From positions 1-31,813 of the IMG/VR virus record IMGVR_UViG_3300036766_000156: 31,813 nucleotides of DNA, one strand, 5' to 3'. The position numbers were made by a program, and so were the translations under genes. The stretch's first letter is position 1; every line of letters starts with the position of its first letter. Positions 21,580 through 31,539 of the stretch are shown here, in pieces. The stretch is from a virus. Below the pieces are notes generated by a model, which ran no database searches, was not told the origin of the DNA, and worked only from the letters and a program-made list of their open reading frames with translations.

Positions 21580-23550
21580 ATGGCGTGGTACGATAATTGG
21601 CTTAAGAAAAGTATTCAAGGCGATATTCAAGAGCTTTTGAAGGCTGACGGTGTTTCTGCGCCTACCTCTGCGCCCACTGCCTCTGAGAATGTCAACGGTG
21701 ATAAGTTACCCGATGTTCCTGAAGATCATGATGCTAGCAAGCAGATAGGTCGCAAGGCGTTCGTTGACGATCCATATTTTGATCTAATCGGTAGTCAAGT
21801 AAACTACAAATTTAAGCTTACGCGCATCTCCAATAAAACCTTGAAAGAGGTCTCTGTAAGAGATTGGCTCATTTCTGCCATCATCCAATGCCGCGTTGAC
21901 ACGTTGTTGAGGTTCTCTAGAATTGAGCACCGTCGCCATGAGATGGGTTTTAGAGTCATCAAGAAAAATAATGAGGCTCACTACACGGATGCTGAGAAGG
22001 AAGAGATAGCAGCAATAGAGGATTTTCTATACAATTGCGGTCGCAAGGAAGGTACTCCTCAGGACGACAAGAAGCTATTCGGTGAGTTCTTAAAACTTGT
22101 TGGTCGTGATGCCCTAACGTTCGGACACGTAGCGATTGAAAAGGTAAAGACGAGAGCCGGCGGACTGCATAGGTTTAGACCTCTACCTGCTGAGTCAATG
22201 TATCTTGTTAATAAGGCTCTATCTAAGGAGCAAGTTAACTCTAATGCGATGAAGAGCTATCAACTCACAAAGCCAAAGAGCAATAACGATCCTAAGGCAG
22301 ATCAAGAAGTTAATGAAGTAAACAACGACTACATTAAGTATGTTCAAGTCTCCTACGATAATAGGCCATTAGCAACGTTTGGCGATGAGGACTGCATATT
22401 CAAGTTGTTTAATCCGCAGAATTTTGCTGACTCGATGGGCTATTGCTACTCTCCTTTAGAGCTAGCTATCATCAATATTACGAATCATTTAAACGTTGAA
22501 AACTACAACGCCAACTTTTTCACGCATGGTTATGCTGCCCGCGGTGTTTTACACCTTAAGGGAACAGTGACGCAGCAGCAGCTAGCTAATTTCCGCAGAA
22601 CCTTTTATAACAGCATCACCGGTCATCAAAACGCTTGGAGAACACCGATCGTTGCAGGTTTAGAAGAAGTTCAGTGGGTTCCAATGTCGGCTAACGCCCG
22701 CGAGATGGAATACCTTAACTACAACAACCACCTCATGCGCATCCTTTGCAGTCAGTTCCAGATCGATCCGATGGAACTTGGACTCGACTATCTCATTTCT
22801 CCTACCGGTCGTGCTCCTATGCAGCAAGCTAGTAATGAGTATAAGATCACGTATTCTCGTGAGCGCGGCCTCGTTCCGCTTCTCATGTTTATCGAAGATC
22901 TTATCAACTGCGATGTTTTGCCAGCTATTGATAAGGGTCTAGCAGAGAAGTATAAGTTTGTTTTCACTGGCATGACCGAAGATACTCCGCAAACTGAGAT
23001 TGCTCAGATGCAGGCAGAGATGACTGTCTGGAAGACGATGAACGATCTTCTCCAGCAGGCACAGAAGGATAAGATTAATGAGAAGGCTGCTGACCTTCCG
23101 CTTAACCAAGCATTCTGGGCACTAGTCGAAAAGAACTACACCAGGGGTGAGATTCGCGAGTTGTTCTTGGGCGATAAGGGTGCTTCGGCCCGCAGAGAGT
23201 TACAGTATATCCCAGGTGATCAAGCATTCTTAGCATGGCAGCAACTACTTCTTACTATCGACAACGTGAAGAAGCAAGAAGCTCAGATGGCATCTCAACA
23301 AGATCAAGCTACACAAGAAGCTCAGATGAAGATGGCTCAAGAACAGCAAAAGCATGAGCACGCTGAAGCTGCTCATGGCCGCGACAAGGAAAAGCACAAT
23401 CTGTCTATGGAAGAGATTAAAGCAAAGGCGGCTTCTGACGCTGTGCAGCACGGACTTAAGGCATCGGCTAAGCAATTTGGCGCTAGCAAGGCTACAAATG
23501 TTGGTGGTACTGTAGTGGCCAATCCGATGAACAAGTCGGAAGATGAATGA
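21580..23550 (+). CDS. Portal protein
   Basis: 656 aa dodecameric portal through which DNA enters and leaves the capsid. It follows TerL directly. Visible features are the KTLKEVSVRDWLISAI helix, a central region with NITNHLNVENYNANFF and GLEEVQWVPM, and the MELGLDYLISPTGRAPM segment, which fit portal wing/stem regions of large myophages. The C-terminal ~100 residues are Gln/Glu/Lys/Met-rich coiled coil ending in a basic/acidic tail. Length is in the range for large phages. Confidence 0.88.
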   Translation: MAWYDNWLKKSIQGDIQELLKADGVSAPTSAPTASENVNGDKLPDVPEDHDASKQIGRKAFVDDPYFDLIGSQVNYKFKLTRISNKTLKEVSVRDWLISAIIQCRVDTLLRFSRIEHRRHEMGFRVIKKNNEAHYTDAEKEEIAAIEDFLYNCGRKEGTPQDDKKLFGEFLKLVGRDALTFGHVAIEKVKTRAGGLHRFRPLPAESMYLVNKALSKEQVNSNAMKSYQLTKPKSNNDPKADQEVNEVNNDYIKYVQVSYDNRPLATFGDEDCIFKLFNPQNFADSMGYCYSPLELAIINITNHLNVENYNANFFTHGYAARGVLHLKGTVTQQQLANFRRTFYNSITGHQNAWRTPIVAGLEEVQWVPMSANAREMEYLNYNNHLMRILCSQFQIDPMELGLDYLISPTGRAPMQQASNEYKITYSRERGLVPLLMFIEDLINCDVLPAIDKGLAEKYKFVFTGMTEDTPQTEIAQMQAEMTVWKTMNDLLQQAQKDKINEKAADLPLNQAFWALVEKNYTRGEIRELFLGDKGASARRELQYIPGDQAFLAWQQLLLTIDNVKKQEAQMASQQDQATQEAQMKMAQEQQKHEHAEAAHGRDKEKHNLSMEEIKAKAASDAVQHGLKASAKQFGASKATNVGGTVVANPMNKSEDE

Positions 23551-23712: not shown

Positions 23713-24549
23713 ATGGCATTAATAATTTTAGAAGGCCTTGATAGGACTGGTAAGAGCTCTGTTGCTCAGATGTTTGAGAACAAGGGTTTTGAAATCATTC
23801 ACATGTCTGCTCCCGACAAAGCCATGAGTCAACCTGGCTATGTTGGACCAAGTTACCTGGACCAGATGGTTGAGCTGCTTACTAGCATCTCTGGGCGAGA
23901 CGTGGTTCTCGATCGTTCTCACTATGGAGAACTCATCTGGCCGCAGGTTTATGGAAGAAAGCCTCTTCTTTCTGACGAGGATATGGAGATCTTGCAAGAG
24001 ATTGAAGCCACTATGGACACATCTCGTATCCTGATGCACGACACAAACAGTGAAGCGCATTGGCAGAGATGTGTCGATAACAAGGAGCCTCTCACTAAAG
24101 TGCAGTTTGTTAAGGCTAGATCGCTGTACTCTAGCATGGCAGACAAGTATGGGTTTGAGAGAAAAACCTTAAAGGACTTTCCAGATGCAGTACAACCGTT
24201 ACCGGTTAACGCGACCAGTGCACTCGCAGATAATCCACAACGTGCCGACGCGAAGACTGATAATTCTGTTGATAAAACTCAAGGTGATTCTGCCAGTCAA
24301 GCTTTAAATAAGACTAAAGAACAACTCAAACTTGAGCGAGCGAATATCATTAATGAGGTCTTATCTAAACGCATCATTAAGGGTAAGGGACCATCGTATG
24401 ACGAGGTCGAGCGAAGTGTTAGGCACTTCTTGAATACGGAACTGGGTAAAATTCTTGGAACGGCATCTCAAGCGCCCGGATTTTCCAATGAAGAAGTAGA
24501 TTTGTTGAAATTTTTCTGTAAAAGACTCAAAGACAAGGAGAGCGAATGA
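23713..24549 (+). CDS. P-loop nucleotide kinase (dNMP/thymidylate kinase-like) with extra C-terminal domain
   Basis: 278 aa. The N-terminal ~160 residues are a thymidylate/deoxynucleoside-kinase fold: P-loop GLDRTGKS at residues 8-15, DRSHYGE at 67-73 (the DR substrate motif), and a C-terminal KYGFE region. A Ser/Asp/Asn-rich linker (about 165-200) leads to a separate helical domain (about 205-278) with IKGKGPSYDEVERSVRHFL and an FSNEEVDLLKFFCKRL ending, not recognised. It sits among head genes, and a second, conventional thymidylate kinase is encoded at 30865. Substrate is unknown. Confidence 0.8.
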   Translation: MALIILEGLDRTGKSSVAQMFENKGFEIIHMSAPDKAMSQPGYVGPSYLDQMVELLTSISGRDVVLDRSHYGELIWPQVYGRKPLLSDEDMEILQEIEATMDTSRILMHDTNSEAHWQRCVDNKEPLTKVQFVKARSLYSSMADKYGFERKTLKDFPDAVQPLPVNATSALADNPQRADAKTDNSVDKTQGDSASQALNKTKEQLKLERANIINEVLSKRIIKGKGPSYDEVERSVRHFLNTELGKILGTASQAPGFSNEEVDLLKFFCKRLKDKESE

Positions 24550-25169: not shown

Positions 25170-25582
25170 TGTCCGATCAAGATGACAAGATGGATAAGAG
25201 GTGTCCTCGCGCCCTCGAGTGCCACCCTACGGGATGGTGCCCTCTTGCCGTAATGCGTCTTAGGGCAATAAGAACGGCCGGCAAAGAACTTACTGAGGAA
25301 GAGGAATCTAAACTTCCTGGTTGTCCTTGGGCGGTAAATCATCAGCTTGCTAACTACTGTTTTTTTAAGTACATCCAAGATTATACGGGAGATAAGCCGC
25401 CTTCAGACGTAGAAGTAGCTTCTTTAAACTGTATTTCTGTTGACGCAGTAAAGAAGACCGAAAAAACGGCCTTAAATAAAATCAGAGATACAGAGGAATT
25501 TAGCTCGTTAAAAGAAGCTATGGAAGGTGAAAGCGTAGTTGGAGAAGCACACAGCGATGACGACTACAAAATTTACAGATAA
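25169..25582 (+). CDS. Cys-cluster protein with sigma region 4-like HTH
   Basis: 137 aa. The N-terminal half has cysteines at 12, 18, 24, 52 and 64 (CPRALEC, GWCPLAV, PGCPWAV, NYCFFKY), a spacing suited to an Fe-S cluster or zinc site. Residues 79-106 (PSDVEVASLNCISVDAVKK then EKTALNKIR) read like the HTH of sigma70 region 4. The C-terminus is acidic. TAATG junction with the previous gene. A transcription regulator with a metal-sensing or structural N-terminus is inferred; no family name can be given. Confidence 0.72.
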   Translation: MSDQDDKMDKRCPRALECHPTGWCPLAVMRLRAIRTAGKELTEEEESKLPGCPWAVNHQLANYCFFKYIQDYTGDKPPSDVEVASLNCISVDAVKKTEKTALNKIRDTEEFSSLKEAMEGESVVGEAHSDDDYKIYR

Positions 25583-25706
25583 GCAGAGACGAGCTTATTA
25601 CGATCTTTTAGACTTACTTCATAAGTTGGGTATTAAGACGCGCCCCATACCAAGGTATGAGGTGCTAGATGCCTACTTTAAGAAGGCTAAACTCCCAAAA
25701 TCATAG
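25557..25706 (+). CDS. Small basic hypothetical protein (49 aa)
   Basis: Overlaps the end of the preceding gene by 26 nt in another frame. Basic, Tyr/Leu-rich, probably two helices (KQRRAYYDLLDLLHKLG and YEVLDAYFKKA). GGAG lies about 12 nt before the ATG, a weak placement. It occupies the only coding-length gap before the protease promoter. Confidence 0.5.
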   Translation: MTTTKFTDKQRRAYYDLLDLLHKLGIKTRPIPRYEVLDAYFKKAKLPKS

Positions 25707-25734: not shown

Positions 25735-27396
25735 ATGGCCAAGAAACCACTCGAGATTGATGCGTGCGCAGGGTCCCAACTTAGGGATACCCAAGGGGAA
25801 ATGCTTTCCGTAGAGGGGGCCGATATTGCCGAGCTGCAAGCTGGCAAGGGTCGCTGGAACGACAATCACGGCAAGGGTTTCTTTAATTCTGTAGGCCGAA
25901 TAACTCATGCTAAGAAGATATTCAAGGCTGAAGACTGCGACGATGACCGTCAGAAGTACTATTGGGAAAAGGTTAAAGCTCCTTATATATATGTTAAGGG
26001 TTATCTTTACGACGACGAAGATCATCCAAACGCTAAAGCTGCTGCCGCTATCTTAAGAAACGTTCACAAGGCTGACTGCCCATTGAAGCTTAAGGCTTCT
26101 GTTGAAGGTGGCGTTGTCTCGCGCGGCATCTCAGATTCCTCGCTACTAGCAAGAACAAAAATTCATTCTGTGGCACTAACGTTTACTCCAGCAAACGTTT
26201 CTACGCTTGTAGAGCCGTTAAATCTTGATAAATCTCAGTTTGATGAAGTTGCCGACATGGAACTCATTAAGTCTGTTATGCATCTTGTCGAAACTGATGT
26301 ACCTTCTTTCCGTCATATAGCTCGTGATGCTTCTGCCTCTAAGGTAAGAGCGAACATTGAGAAGATAGCAGAACTGATGAAGAATGGTGGCGCTGAAATA
26401 GATATTCCAACAAAGCAAGACATATTGCAATATGCGCTAGAGGCTAAGATACAGGACAACGTTGCGAAGATTCATGACATCATCGAAGAGATGAAAAGTG
26501 AAGAGATAGAGAAAGGTCTGAAAGAAGCTATGCTAGGCGCAGCAATGTCTGGTGCGGCTGCTTTATCGCCGCAAGCTGCAAACGCTCCAACGATGACACC
26601 TACACCCGCGCCCCAACATAAAGTAGATCTTTCTAAGATGCCGCAAGAGCATCAAGATGCGTACAAACAGTTTGCCAAGAAGAATCCACTTTTAGGAGCC
26701 ATAGGTCAAGTGGAATCAAGTGGTGGTCAAAATTATGCGCATCCACTTGTCAATGACGTCAACAGTATGCATCATGGTCATGTGGCAGGCGGCATGTTTG
26801 GCATGATGCCAAATGCTGCCCGGTACATACTTCGTAATGATTCAAAACTAGCTTCTAAGTATCCTAAATTAGCCGAAGCATCTAAGGATGTAGGTAAGAA
26901 TCATAAGACCCTTACTGACACGTTTAACTCTGATCCTCAAGTGGCATTTGACTTTGCTAATGCACTTCTAAAGAGAAATAAAAGCAAAACTAAAGACATG
27001 AACATGTTAATTCATTCGTGGAATCATGGACTTAAGGGCACTTGGAACCGTTACAAAAACGAGGGAGCAGACGCTATTAAGGGTGCTGACTATGTTAAGA
27101 AGGTAGCACAAGCCTATCATAGGTTAAAACCACAGACAAGAAAGCCTGCCAAGAATCTTAAGAAGGCTCTTATGGCTGGTTACGGCAGTTCTGGTGTTCC
27201 TACTAGTAATACTGGTGGTGGAGTTTTACAGGTAGAATCGCTAGATGATGGTAGAGGTAAGTTAAGGTACATAACCTGCGATGATTGTGGTAAAGAACAG
27301 GTCTATTCTAAGTATCAAGTAAAGTGTCGTGAGTGCAATAAGTCCTTCCCTATGGAGAAATTACACAAGTTGTTTTTAGGTGCTATAGCTACATAG
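25735..27396 (+). CDS. Prohead maturation protease fused to lytic transglycosylase and zinc ribbon
   Basis: 553 aa, three parts. Residues ~1-165: prohead protease of the gp21/S78 type, with H45 in NDNHGKGFF, S122 in LKASVEGG, and SVALTFTPANVSTLVEP as in these proteases. Residues ~310-465: lytic transglycosylase/lysozyme-like fold with probable catalytic E327 (GQVESSGG), then GGMFGMMPNAARY (compare GLMQIMPSTA) and IHSWNHG. Residues ~476-553: a segment shared with the capsid N-terminus, then a zinc ribbon with C515, C518, C531 and C534. A Pro/Ala linker at ~265-298 joins the first two. Position before scaffold and capsid matches T4 gene order 21-22-23. Autoprocessing probably separates the parts; that is inference. 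Confidence 0.85.
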   Translation: MAKKPLEIDACAGSQLRDTQGEMLSVEGADIAELQAGKGRWNDNHGKGFFNSVGRITHAKKIFKAEDCDDDRQKYYWEKVKAPYIYVKGYLYDDEDHPNAKAAAAILRNVHKADCPLKLKASVEGGVVSRGISDSSLLARTKIHSVALTFTPANVSTLVEPLNLDKSQFDEVADMELIKSVMHLVETDVPSFRHIARDASASKVRANIEKIAELMKNGGAEIDIPTKQDILQYALEAKIQDNVAKIHDIIEEMKSEEIEKGLKEAMLGAAMSGAAALSPQAANAPTMTPTPAPQHKVDLSKMPQEHQDAYKQFAKKNPLLGAIGQVESSGGQNYAHPLVNDVNSMHHGHVAGGMFGMMPNAARYILRNDSKLASKYPKLAEASKDVGKNHKTLTDTFNSDPQVAFDFANALLKRNKSKTKDMNMLIHSWNHGLKGTWNRYKNEGADAIKGADYVKKVAQAYHRLKPQTRKPAKNLKKALMAGYGSSGVPTSNTGGGVLQVESLDDGRGKLRYITCDDCGKEQVYSKYQVKCRECNKSFPMEKLHKLFLGAIAT

Positions 27397-27438
27397 GGTA
27401 GCTAATGGGTATATATGGCGTGTTCAGGTAACAGGCTG

Positions 27439-27447
27439 TGGTATACT
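27439..27447 (+). promoter_or_regulatory. Extended -10 promoter (TGGTATACT) with structured leader
   Basis: TGG plus TATACT, predicted start near 27454, followed by a leader containing an 18-bp palindrome and AAGGAG. Confidence 0.55.
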
Positions 27448-27462
27448 AAGTATTATCAAGTT

Positions 27463-27480
27463 TTAACTTTCGAAAGTTAA
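27463..27480 (+). repeat. Perfect 18-bp palindrome in the 5' leader
   Basis: TTAACTTTCGAAAGTTAA is a perfect inverted repeat just before the AAGGAG site of the 27491 gene. As RNA it would form a 5' hairpin (7-bp stem, TCGA loop) near the transcript start, possibly a stabiliser; as DNA it could be a dimeric operator. Confidence 0.6.
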
Positions 27481-27490
27481 GGAGAACGAA

Positions 27491-27889
27491 ATGGCAAACT
27501 CAGTATCAATCCTAGCGAAAATCGCTCGTAACGCCGAACAGATCGGACTTACGGTGGTGTCGCAGACAGCTTCAGAAGTTGTTATCGACAATGCGTCAAA
27601 CGATCTTCATATCAGTTATGTTGCGGCTTCGATCGCTTCTCCTCAAGGCGGAGTTGATCCAAGCGTTTCTCCATTCCTTGGAATCGGAATTGGAAACCCT
27701 GGACAGATCAAGATGAAGTCTTCTAGCACGGCTAATGACAATATGACTGACATTGTTGACAGCCAGATTGCTGCTCAAGTTTTAGCGTTACTCGCGGGCT
27801 TTGCAAATGACCTCGTTTTGGAAAATTCTGATGCGTCGTTTTCAGTTCGCCTACGTGGAACTGTTGACATGTTGGGTATGGGTCAGTAA
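27491..27889 (+). CDS. Hypothetical capsid-module protein (132 aa)
   Basis: Neutral, Ala/Ser/Asn-rich protein with alternating beta-like segments and a Gly/Met C-terminus, no cysteines. It lies between the protease and scaffold genes, with its own promoter, hairpin leader and strong RBS, which suggests an abundant product. A head decoration or minor capsid protein is likely by context, not by motif. Confidence 0.72.
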   Translation: MANSVSILAKIARNAEQIGLTVVSQTASEVVIDNASNDLHISYVAASIASPQGGVDPSVSPFLGIGIGNPGQIKMKSSSTANDNMTDIVDSQIAAQVLALLAGFANDLVLENSDASFSVRLRGTVDMLGMGQ

Positions 27890-27918
27890 TCGGTCTTAAT
27901 GATTAACGAGGAGTTAAC

Positions 27919-28722
27919 ATGAAAGAGGAACTAAAGAAAAGCCTCACAGACCTGATCGACGAGACACTACTCGAGCTTGAAGAGCTTAAGAAGTCCCGCT
28001 TCGGCGCTGCTGAGATTGAAATCAAGGGTCCTGGCGAAGGAATCGCAGGCAAGCCTTCTAATGGAGATCTTCATGCTAAGGCTGAAGACGACAAGAAGAA
28101 GGAAGAAGACGACAAGAAAAAGAAAGAAAAGGACGAAGCTGAAAAAGCTGAGGGCCAGAATCGTCAAGCAGACCCAAATGGTGGACATCACCAGGTAGAT
28201 AAGGCTGAAGCTGAAAAAGCTGAGGGCCAGAATCGTCAAGCTGATCCTAACGGCGGACATCACCAGATGGACAAGGCTGAAGACAAGGATAAGAAGGACG
28301 ACAAGAAGGATAAGAAAGAACCTCACGAAGATCCTGAGCACGAAGACAAAGAAAAGAAGATGGCTCAGAAGATGCTTGATATGCATAAGGGTGAAATGAA
28401 GAAGTCTCAGGAAGAAGCTGAGGCCCTCATGAAGAGTTATGTTGATGAGAAGGTAAAGCCTCTCGAAGACAAGCTCTCAACCATCCTAGGTCTAGTGAAT
28501 AAGATCGCTGAACAACCTGTTCCAGCTAAGGGCGTTCCTGCCAATGCTGTTCCTCTCCGCAAGAGCGCTGAGGAAGGTACAGAGTCTTTATCCAAGGGTG
28601 ACGTTGCTTCCAAACTATTCGAATTGAAGAAGTCTGGAACCAAAGTTGATTCCTTAGATATTACTAAGGCTGAAATGGGACAGGATCTTCAAAAGATCGC
28701 TGAGAAATATAAGATTTCGTAA
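27919..28722 (+). CDS. Capsid scaffolding/core protein
   Basis: 267 aa, extremely Lys/Glu/Asp-rich and probably helical, directly before the major capsid gene, as T4 gp22 precedes gp23. The middle (about residues 55-145) is low complexity and includes two exact-length 24-residue repeats. The C-terminal ~60 residues are less charged and helical (ASKLFELKKSG, ITKAEMGQDLQKIAEKY), the part that contacts capsid protein in known scaffolds. GAGGAG lies upstream of the ATG. Confidence 0.82.
   Translation: MKEELKKSLTDLIDETLLELEELKKSRFGAAEIEIKGPGEGIAGKPSNGDLHAKAEDDKKKEEDDKKKKEKDEAEKAEGQNRQADPNGGHHQVDKAEAEKAEGQNRQADPNGGHHQMDKAEDKDKKDDKKDKKEPHEDPEHEDKEKKMAQKMLDMHKGEMKKSQEEAEALMKSYVDEKVKPLEDKLSTILGLVNKIAEQPVPAKGVPANAVPLRKSAEEGTESLSKGDVASKLFELKKSGTKVDSLDITKAEMGQDLQKIAEKYKIS
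28138..28281 (+). repeat. 72-bp tandem duplication in the scaffold gene
   Basis: Two units, 28138-28209 and 28210-28281, each encode a 24-residue block beginning AEKAEGQNRQADPNGGHHQ and ending DKAE. The proteins differ at one residue (Val/Met) while the DNA differs at several silent positions, showing selection to keep the peptide. Confidence 0.88.
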
Positions 28723-28740
28723 TCAAAGGAGAGAACGAAG

Positions 28741-30186
28741 ATGAACGACGCAGTTAATCAAATTTTGCAGGGCCTAGATCAAGGTCTCGTGTCCGCATCG
28801 GACATTGAGTCTCTTAATAAGGCAATTACCGCTGGATACGGCGGGGCTGGTAAGCCTACTGACCTCACCTACGGTGGTGTCCTTCAGGCTGAATCTCTCG
28901 AGGCTACTCTCAAGTCGATCACGTTCGACATGAAGAACCTCAAGTTCTGGCCAGCTGTCAGCGTGGATAAGGCCTATAACTTGTTCGAACAATACAATCG
29001 TTTGATCAGTTATGGTTCTGATTCAGCGCCATACATCGGCGAAGGTGGAGCTCCTCAAGAGGAAGATTCGACCTACGTACGTGACGGTCAAAAGATCGTG
29101 TTCTTCGGAACTCGTCGTAGGGTATCTCACCAGATGACGCTCGTTCGTGTTACTGTTGGTGACATTGTTGCTCAACAGGCAAAAGAAGGAACGATGCATC
29201 TCCTTAAGAACGTTGAGCGCGAACTCTATTGGGGACATGCTCACTTCATGAATCAGGTAACTGGTAGGGAAACAGGCTCTGACGCTGACCTTCCAGCAAA
29301 CAGCATCGCGATGAGCGGTCTGTTGAAGCAACTCCAGAAGGGCGACACGGATGCACAGATGCAGGCCGGTGACTTCTTGGGTTACGGTGACTCTAGCTCG
29401 ATCATGACCGATCTTGCTGGTCAAGTAATGGCTCAGGACGATATCGAACGTCTAGCAGTCGTTGCTCTCGAAAACTTCGGTGCTCCGGACCAGTTGCATA
29501 TCGAACCAGCTGCCTTGTCAGCCTTCGTTAAGCAGTTCTATCCTCAGTTCCGTTCAGCTCCAGGTCTTGCTAACCAAACCGTTGGTTACGACGTGTCAAA
29601 GGTTCAAACGACCGCTGGCGCGATCGACTTGAAGCCAAACCTCTTCCTACGTCCACGCAGCGGAGTTCGCTCCCTTGCTGTGAACGCACAGGCTCCAGCG
29701 TCAACGTTCACTGCAACTGCAACCTCCCTTGGTTCAGGCAGCGGATTCGTTGCTGGCACCTACCAGGTGAAGGTAACAGCTGTTAACGATGCCGGTGAAT
29801 CTTCACCTATCGCATCAGCTCCATGTGTACTCGGTGCTCCTAGCAACATCACTGTTGCTATCGGCTCTGTGCCAGCCGGCGTTAAGTACTTTAAGTTCTA
29901 CGTCTCCGCTCCTGGCGGCGCTGCTGGAACTGAGAAGTTCGCTGGTAACTGGGCAAATGTTGGATCCGCTAGCTATGTTTCTGCTAACGTCCAGCTCCCA
30001 GGTCTTGGCGAAGCATTCTTGCTCGATATGAGTGCAGAATGTATGCGATTCAAGCAACTTGCTCCTCTAAGCAAGATTAACTTCGCTATCGTGACTACCG
30101 CTCTGGAATTCGCGATCGTGATGTACGGAGCGCTGTTCGTCTATACGCCTCGCTTCAACTGCTTGTTCCGTAACATCGGAAAATAA
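28741..30186 (+). CDS. Major capsid protein with inserted Ig/FN3-like domain
   Basis: 481 aa. Position after protease and scaffold, an AAGGAG site and a strong terminator after the gene all fit the major capsid protein. Residues ~1-55 look like a pro-region, with AGYGGAG and GGVLQAESL shared with the maturation protease tail. Residues ~60-315 and ~422-481 form the HK97-type shell; residues ~317-420 are an Ig/fibronectin-III-like insertion (YQVKVTAVNDAGESSPIAS is typical) ahead of the closing EAFLLDMSAECMRFKQLAPLS. The outside-facing domain would act as a built-in decoration. Codon use here is visibly more biased than in neighbours, consistent with high expression. Confidence 0.9.
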   Translation: MNDAVNQILQGLDQGLVSASDIESLNKAITAGYGGAGKPTDLTYGGVLQAESLEATLKSITFDMKNLKFWPAVSVDKAYNLFEQYNRLISYGSDSAPYIGEGGAPQEEDSTYVRDGQKIVFFGTRRRVSHQMTLVRVTVGDIVAQQAKEGTMHLLKNVERELYWGHAHFMNQVTGRETGSDADLPANSIAMSGLLKQLQKGDTDAQMQAGDFLGYGDSSSIMTDLAGQVMAQDDIERLAVVALENFGAPDQLHIEPAALSAFVKQFYPQFRSAPGLANQTVGYDVSKVQTTAGAIDLKPNLFLRPRSGVRSLAVNAQAPASTFTATATSLGSGSGFVAGTYQVKVTAVNDAGESSPIASAPCVLGAPSNITVAIGSVPAGVKYFKFYVSAPGGAAGTEKFAGNWANVGSASYVSANVQLPGLGEAFLLDMSAECMRFKQLAPLSKINFAIVTTALEFAIVMYGALFVYTPRFNCLFRNIGK

Positions 30187-30864: not shown

Positions 30865-31539
30865 ATGAAGAAAGCAGTGTATATCTGTTTCGAGGGATCT
30901 GAAGGTGTAGGTAAAACTACACAAACTCAGAAGTTGGTAGATTGGCTACGAGCGAAGGGTTACAGAGTCTTACAGACAAAAGAACCCGGAACTTCACATT
31001 TACCTATTACAATGCAGCTCAGGGGCTTAATGCTAGATAAGCAATATGATGCCCAACTCACTCCTACCGCAAGAGAATTTATTAGTCAAGCCATAAGATC
31101 CATTCATATGGAGCATCTCATCCTTCCTGCGCTGTACGAATATGATTACATCGTGCAAGACAGAGGTATCCTGTCAGGTTTGGCCTACGGTACGGCGTGT
31201 GGCAATGATAGGGGTTGGCTGTGGGAGATGGCTGAACAGGTCATACCTATCGATGGCCTTACACAAGAACCTATTGAATATGACAGTATAATCTATCTTA
31301 AGGGAGACACCTTTTCTGGCCTTAAGAAAGCGCTTCAAGCAAAGCAAGAATTCGCCGCTGGCGATGCCATGGAAGCAAAAGGTAACTCCTTCCTGCAAAC
31401 TGCCTCGTCTAACATGGACGAGATGTCACACGCGTTCAATACAAAAATCATCAATGTTGATGGTAAGGGCATCGAAGAGGTGTTCCAAGAAATATTGCAC
31501 ACGCTTAACATTGAGGATCTTATAGATGTCAAGAAGTAA
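30865..31539 (+). CDS. tmk: Thymidylate kinase
   Basis: 224 aa dTMP kinase that makes dTDP for phage DNA synthesis. FEGSEGVGKTTQ is the P-loop at about residues 9-20, KEPGTS is the TMPK EPG motif, and QDRGILSGLAYG matches the DR(Y)xxSxxAYQ substrate loop. A longer than usual region at 130-190 replaces the LID; it has Lys but no clear Arg-rich LID. Length is normal (about 205-220 aa). It overlaps the next gene by 14 nt. Confidence 0.88.
   Translation: MKKAVYICFEGSEGVGKTTQTQKLVDWLRAKGYRVLQTKEPGTSHLPITMQLRGLMLDKQYDAQLTPTAREFISQAIRSIHMEHLILPALYEYDYIVQDRGILSGLAYGTACGNDRGWLWEMAEQVIPIDGLTQEPIEYDSIIYLKGDTFSGLKKALQAKQEFAAGDAMEAKGNSFLQTASSNMDEMSHAFNTKIINVDGKGIEEVFQEILHTLNIEDLIDVKK

Follow-up and report, generated by a model that had tools for sequence, protein, structure and literature searches.

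How a head protease enters the prohead and is retained there until assembly ends is poorly known in most tailed phages. The viral DNA analyzed here, a genome fragment of 31,813 nucleotides (IMG/VR record IMGVR_UViG_3300036766_000156; the window), raises this question in a specific form: its predicted head protease carries near the C-terminus a segment that recurs in the N-terminal arm of the capsid protein. An earlier note on this DNA had considered the segment either a maturation cleavage site, cut after E51 of the capsid protein and E501 of the protease, or a docking tag for the protease. In this study, we compared the two copies with each other and with those of related phages.

The protease and capsid genes

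The prohead (head maturation) protease has 553 aa and is encoded at 25735..27396 (+ strand); it matched phrog_1028, head maturation protease, with E 6.6e-10. Its predicted catalytic domain (residues ~1-160; 25735..26214, +) has an assemblin-like fold in which H45 and S122 are candidate catalytic residues, and both were invariant among the aligned homologues. Foldseek with the protease model returned herpesvirus proteases on top, pUL26N among them (best E 9e-4). By the fold of the model, the conserved His and Ser and the profile match, the protein is classed as a herpesvirus-assemblin-like prohead protease with predicted activity. A search of the protease against named phages gave Mx1 as the sole match.

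In the AlphaFold2 model, the assemblin-like domain is followed by helices, a well-predicted region at 303-466 (pLDDT about 85-98), a disordered segment at 471-507 that holds the shared element (pLDDT <50), and a small C-terminal domain. The region at 303-466 (26641..27132, +), which separates the element from the protease domain, is a predicted lysozyme-like/SLT transglycosylase insert; it matched PF01464 SLT with E 1.3e-4 and 21.9 bits, barely over the cut-off of 21.3, and its Foldseek matches were phi6 lysin and lytic transglycosylases (Slt). The C-terminal domain is a putative Cys4 zinc ribbon (C515, C518, C531, C534; 27256..27354, +) whose four cysteines were invariant in the aligned homologues and whose Pfam matches were weak, below cut-off. 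The region between protease domain and element varied among relatives, where it held SLT, HEAT repeats or nearly nothing, and the proteases ranged from 284 to 1007 aa. HEAT repeats were found in the much longer proteases of L046 and L087 and almost no insert in that of L088 (284 aa), and all kept the element. The element was thus kept despite exchange of the insert, as was the zinc ribbon where it was read.

The major capsid protein (481 aa; 28741..30186, +) is of the SPO1 type. It matched phrog_752 with E 8.8e-54, residues 18-480 covering positions 14-469 of the 475 in the profile, and the SPO1 gp6.1 structure (9vel) with E 2.8e-58. The closest named capsids were mostly from Herelleviridae, at ~31% identity. 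The AlphaFold capsid model (mean pLDDT 52) was too poor for placing the arm and was not used. Between the two genes lies a scaffold protein assigned by position and composition (27919..28722, +), for which profile searches gave no family match; it contains two near-identical AEKAEGQNRQADPNGGHHQ copies in tandem.

The two copies of the shared element

An ungapped alignment of protease N474-D505 (NLKKALMAGYGSSGVPTSNTGGGVLQVESLDD) with capsid S24-A55 (SLNKAITAGYGGAGKPTDLTYGGVLQAESLEA) gave 19/32 identities. We delimited the element as L475-D504 in the protease (27157..27246, +) and L25-E54 in the capsid protein (28813..28902, +), in agreement with the earlier placement of protease L475 at 27157. 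When the protease was shuffled 300 times, the best 31-residue ungapped match had 11 identities (mean 9.5). BLASTP of the whole protease against the whole capsid protein returned the element segment with E = 4e-8, and the rest was within noise. These results bear out the gapless alignment with 19 identities that had first been noticed, and the element common to the two proteins is real. On the coding strand of the window, a degenerate A-G-Y-G pattern had two matches only, which were the two copies.

The earlier note had also held that the codons of the copies differ and that the pair is therefore old and conserved. The first point stands in part: the DNA of the copies was identical at only 62/96 positions (~65%), and 11 of the 19 residues in common have the same codon. 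The age of the pair is better seen in its spread over distant phages than in codons.

Spread and co-variation of the element pair

Relatives were gathered from viral contigs, and 53 proteases and 39 capsids were aligned. The element pair was found for all 53 aligned proteases of the window's phage clade. It was also present in Herelleviridae (SPO1, 812/K, A511, and LP65; the SPO1 copies are DKSLEAGYEVDPEKMEGGDVFRKESLD in the protease and NKALEAGHTVNPLDLEGGGAFRVESLE in the capsid protein) and in Mx1, Mecenats66, Touem01, LysYB2, Goe26, and others. The Mx1 protease has 1239 residues, with the element at 242-269. In L016, L019, L020, L022, and L027, the protease and capsid genes are on opposite strands, and the protease still keeps the element. 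No paper stating the pairing was found in the open-licence literature.

When 11 relatives with 115-177 kb records were searched by profile, each had exactly two element copies, and SPO1 also had two. In Mx1 the profile picked up the protease copy alone, and it failed to detect the divergent copies of 812, Mecenats66, and AVP, which were seen by eye and in other comparisons. Small arm-like ORFs 5' of the protease aside, no third element-bearing head protein was found by profile in the 11 large relatives. A search for the element in other head proteins had been suggested; the A-G-Y-G pattern in the window and the profile in the large relatives recovered the two copies and no further bearer.

Across 15 lineages, the mean identity of the two copies from the same phage was 0.54, compared with 0.36 for cross-pairs (permutation P 1e-5, a guide only since the lineages are related by descent). 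The own partner was not ranked first in Lb338, 3-521, LfeInf, and AVP, and missed first rank by one place in SPO1, Mecenats66, and LP65. In two phages the protease had no recognizable element. Bacteroides phage DAC16 has it in the capsid protein only, and in Chryseobacterium phage MA9V-3 (L004:6195-7793) the protease ORF runs on into a KS-rich scaffold-like part. Scans of viral contigs for proteins related to the MA9V-3 protease or to the DAC16 and Mx1 capsids gave no match.

Predicted cleavage sites before each copy

Listeria phage A511 and Staphylococcus phage 812 show where the capsid protein is cut in relatives that share with the window the element pair and the gene order portal-protease-scaffold-capsid. 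In its GenBank record, the A511 capsid protein is annotated with a mature peptide from residue S24 (ALK|SFTTGYG, cut K23|S24). For phage 812, PDB entries 9row, 9rox, and 9roz have deposited residues 25-463, starting SFQTGYG (cut K24|S25), and entry 5lii gives all 463 residues. Propeptides 1-23 (A511) and 1-24 (812) are thus absent from the mature capsids. By this annotation and these deposited structures, the cut in both phages falls just before the element, which remains part of the virion.

The window has a predicted maturation site at the matching position, K27|A28 (L-N-K|A; 28819..28824, +). It is the sole [LM]xK[SA] in the capsid protein, and K27 and A28 were invariant in the 39 aligned capsids. 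From the sequence, use of this A511/812-type site would release a propeptide of residues 1-27 (28741..28821, +), parallel to those of A511 and 812, and would leave most of the capsid copy of the element in place. Retention of capsid residues 1-51 had been named as the result that would speak against cleavage; the actual prediction is that only residues 1-27 are lost. The protease has a predicted self-cleavage site, K477|A478 (L-K-K|A; 27163..27168, +), at the front edge of its copy, the same element position as K23|S24 of A511 and K24|S25 of 812. The column of K477 was K in 53/53 proteases, and the next residue was M in one of them and A in the other 52. A511 and 812/K differ from the window in having K|S rather than K|A, and in lacking the lysozyme-like insert and the zinc ribbon.

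The same motif recurs in other head proteins. In the scaffold genes 5' of the capsid gene in relatives, 527 KS were counted where shuffles predicted 214, and KA was not clearly enriched (274 against 240). Among 392 distinct scaffold KS sites, P3 was L in 62% and M in 12%. In the window, [LM]xK[SA] occurs once in the capsid protein (K27), three times in the protease (K166, K179, and K477), and seven times in the scaffold protein, where 0.68 were expected; L/M-x-K|S stands there at K7, K25, K162, K172, K215, and K238. The other predicted protease sites, K166|S167 (L-D-K|S; 26230..26235, +) and K179|S180 (L-I-K|S; 26269..26274, +), each had KS in 47/53 homologues; with K477, the predicted sites stand on both sides of the insert. 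A portal propeptide site is predicted at K21|A22 (21640..21645, +), a place where LLK|A is found in the majority of related portals whose start is intact, and 32/55 related portal starts had [LMIV]xK[SA] within the first 60 residues. Since motif counts in these lone proteins were not significant (protease P 0.12, portal P 0.08), the protease and portal sites rest on conservation. These results suggest L/M-x-K|S/A as the probable cleavage motif of this protease family, with lysine at P1.

In T4, gp21 cleaves itself, the scaffold, and the gp23 N-terminus, and its short motif has L (or I) as the P3 residue. The predicted cut targets and P3 are alike in the window, whereas P1 is E in T4 and K here. 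No experimental statement of a K|S rule was found in the open-licence literature; the L/M-x-K|S/A rule would allow head maturation to be mapped in a large phage group.

Role of the protease copy

We judge it fairly probable that the N-terminal arm module of the capsid protein has been reused to dock the protease, together with its cargo, and that the protease is then freed by self-cleavage. In this model, the mature capsid protein bears the element as its N-terminal arm module, a second copy stands near the protease C-terminus, and each copy directly follows an L/M-x-K|S/A site (K27|A28 and K477|A478). In the precursor, the arm copy would imitate the capsid arm, so that the protease and its lysozyme-like insert would be docked in the shell or scaffold lattice. 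After assembly, the protease would sever its own tether, as its motif suggests, separate the insert from its catalytic domain at the K166 and K179 sites, remove 27 residues from the capsid protein, and chop the scaffold. The element would remain in the mature capsid. A docking tag, the second of the roles first proposed, fits the data best, though indirectly, and a docking role is suggested by conservation of the element, its disorder in the protease model, its separation from the cut site in some lineages, its co-variation with the capsid copy, and its absence from the scaffold, which is the other presumed substrate.

The arrangement has partial parallels in known systems. In herpesviruses (UL26/UL26.5), the protease enters the procapsid by way of a C-terminal tail that it has in common with another head protein, and it frees itself through two cuts, one at a release site and one at a maturation site, with specificity after A. 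The window protease has the same fold by Foldseek, but its predicted cut is after K, and its tail is shared with the capsid protein itself, from separate genes, rather than with the scaffold; no element-like stretch was found in 74 scaffolds, so a shared protease/scaffold tail of the UL26/UL26.5 type was not observed. By this analogy, a shared tail may recruit the window protease into the procapsid in the herpesvirus manner. In phage lambda, where genes C and Nu3 are nested, the head protease has its C-terminal part in common with another head protein. The window likewise shares the C-terminal part of its protease, but the genes are not nested and the partner is the capsid rather than the scaffold. 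We know of no shared arm on the protease of T4.

The principal alternative is that the element is an extended primed-side recognition signal (K|A followed by AGYG...LQxES), with the protease copy serving either as an autoinhibitory pseudosubstrate or simply for autocleavage. Nearly all copies have K|A or K|S immediately before them, and co-variation of the copies would equally follow from a shared active site. Moreover, capsid and protease sites of the clade are K|A while K|S predominates in the scaffold (404 S against 80 A), and additional contacts might be required at a weaker site. However, the scaffold sites, the commonest presumed substrates, are without the element, and the spacing between site and element varies in some proteases. 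The proteases of Mecenats66 and LfeInf have the element but no K|S/A next to it, which separates it from the cut site. In the model, the element was also disordered rather than docked on the catalytic domain, although a monomer model is weak evidence. Docking is favored because scaffolds carry cut sites without the element and because these two proteases keep the element without a site. Persistence of the element where the insert has been exchanged likewise speaks for docking. We regard a recognition signal as rather unlikely.

A second alternative, which we consider improbable, is that repeated gene conversion between nearby genes or a past duplication keeps the copies alike and the protease copy has no shared function. 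Greater similarity within than across lineages is what conversion would give, but the window copies are just 65% identical in DNA, the protease copy is kept when its gene is on the opposite strand and when the adjoining insert changes, and its key residues are invariant.

Least tenable is a T4-like cut after E51 and E501 that removes the entire element: LQAE|S and LQVE|S resemble T4-type cuts after E, and E51 is invariant, but this cut is very probably wrong because it would remove residues that A511 and 812 virions keep, their mature capsids beginning before the element with the aligned glutamate uncut, and moreover the recurrent motif in scaffold, portal, and protease has K at P1 and the residue aligned to E51 is Q in Mecenats66 and Touem01.

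The docking model must also accommodate the phages in which the protease lacks the element. Docking must come about otherwise in DAC16, which is a point against the model. The protease-scaffold fusion of MA9V-3 would fit an alternative recruitment route, as a single case; DAC16, unlike MA9V-3, has no such fusion.

Protease peptides have been detected in virions of Listeria phage CKA15, which is P100/A511-like, and the authors view this protease as residual (PMC12282133). These peptides show that the protease can remain with virions. A more tentative extension of docking, possible but doubtful, is that the protease gene is a modular loader: the arm copy would anchor the protease in the shell, and whatever domain is inserted ahead of the arm, lysozyme-like or HEAT repeats, would be carried into the head, released by self-cleavage at K166/K179 and K477, and perhaps injected with the DNA. 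Such a loader might be a means, already present in nature, of bringing cargo enzymes into phage heads. More generally, proteases with a copy of the capsid arm occur in phages as far apart as Herelleviridae and Myxococcus phages, and such a copy would be a simple and testable answer to how the protease enters.

Neighboring open reading frames

Small ORFs resembling the later capsid N-arm (e.g. IKSADRFMGTVRVESLDLVLDNVTFDVKDLKLWSPIKK) were seen just 5' of the protease gene in several relatives (L092:7727-7972, L093:7742-7972, L013:4540-4770, L014/L091, and L085/L090). They may encode a stand-alone arm protein or be remnants of a capsid gene. The window has a 49-codon ORF 5' of the protease (25557-25706, +) that matches the first part of these ORFs; it looks decayed, since a stop interrupts its arm-like part. 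Two further ORFs of the window, 23713-24549 and 30865-31539, flank the head genes, and their N-termini resemble nucleotide (thymidylate-type) kinases, as judged by eye only.
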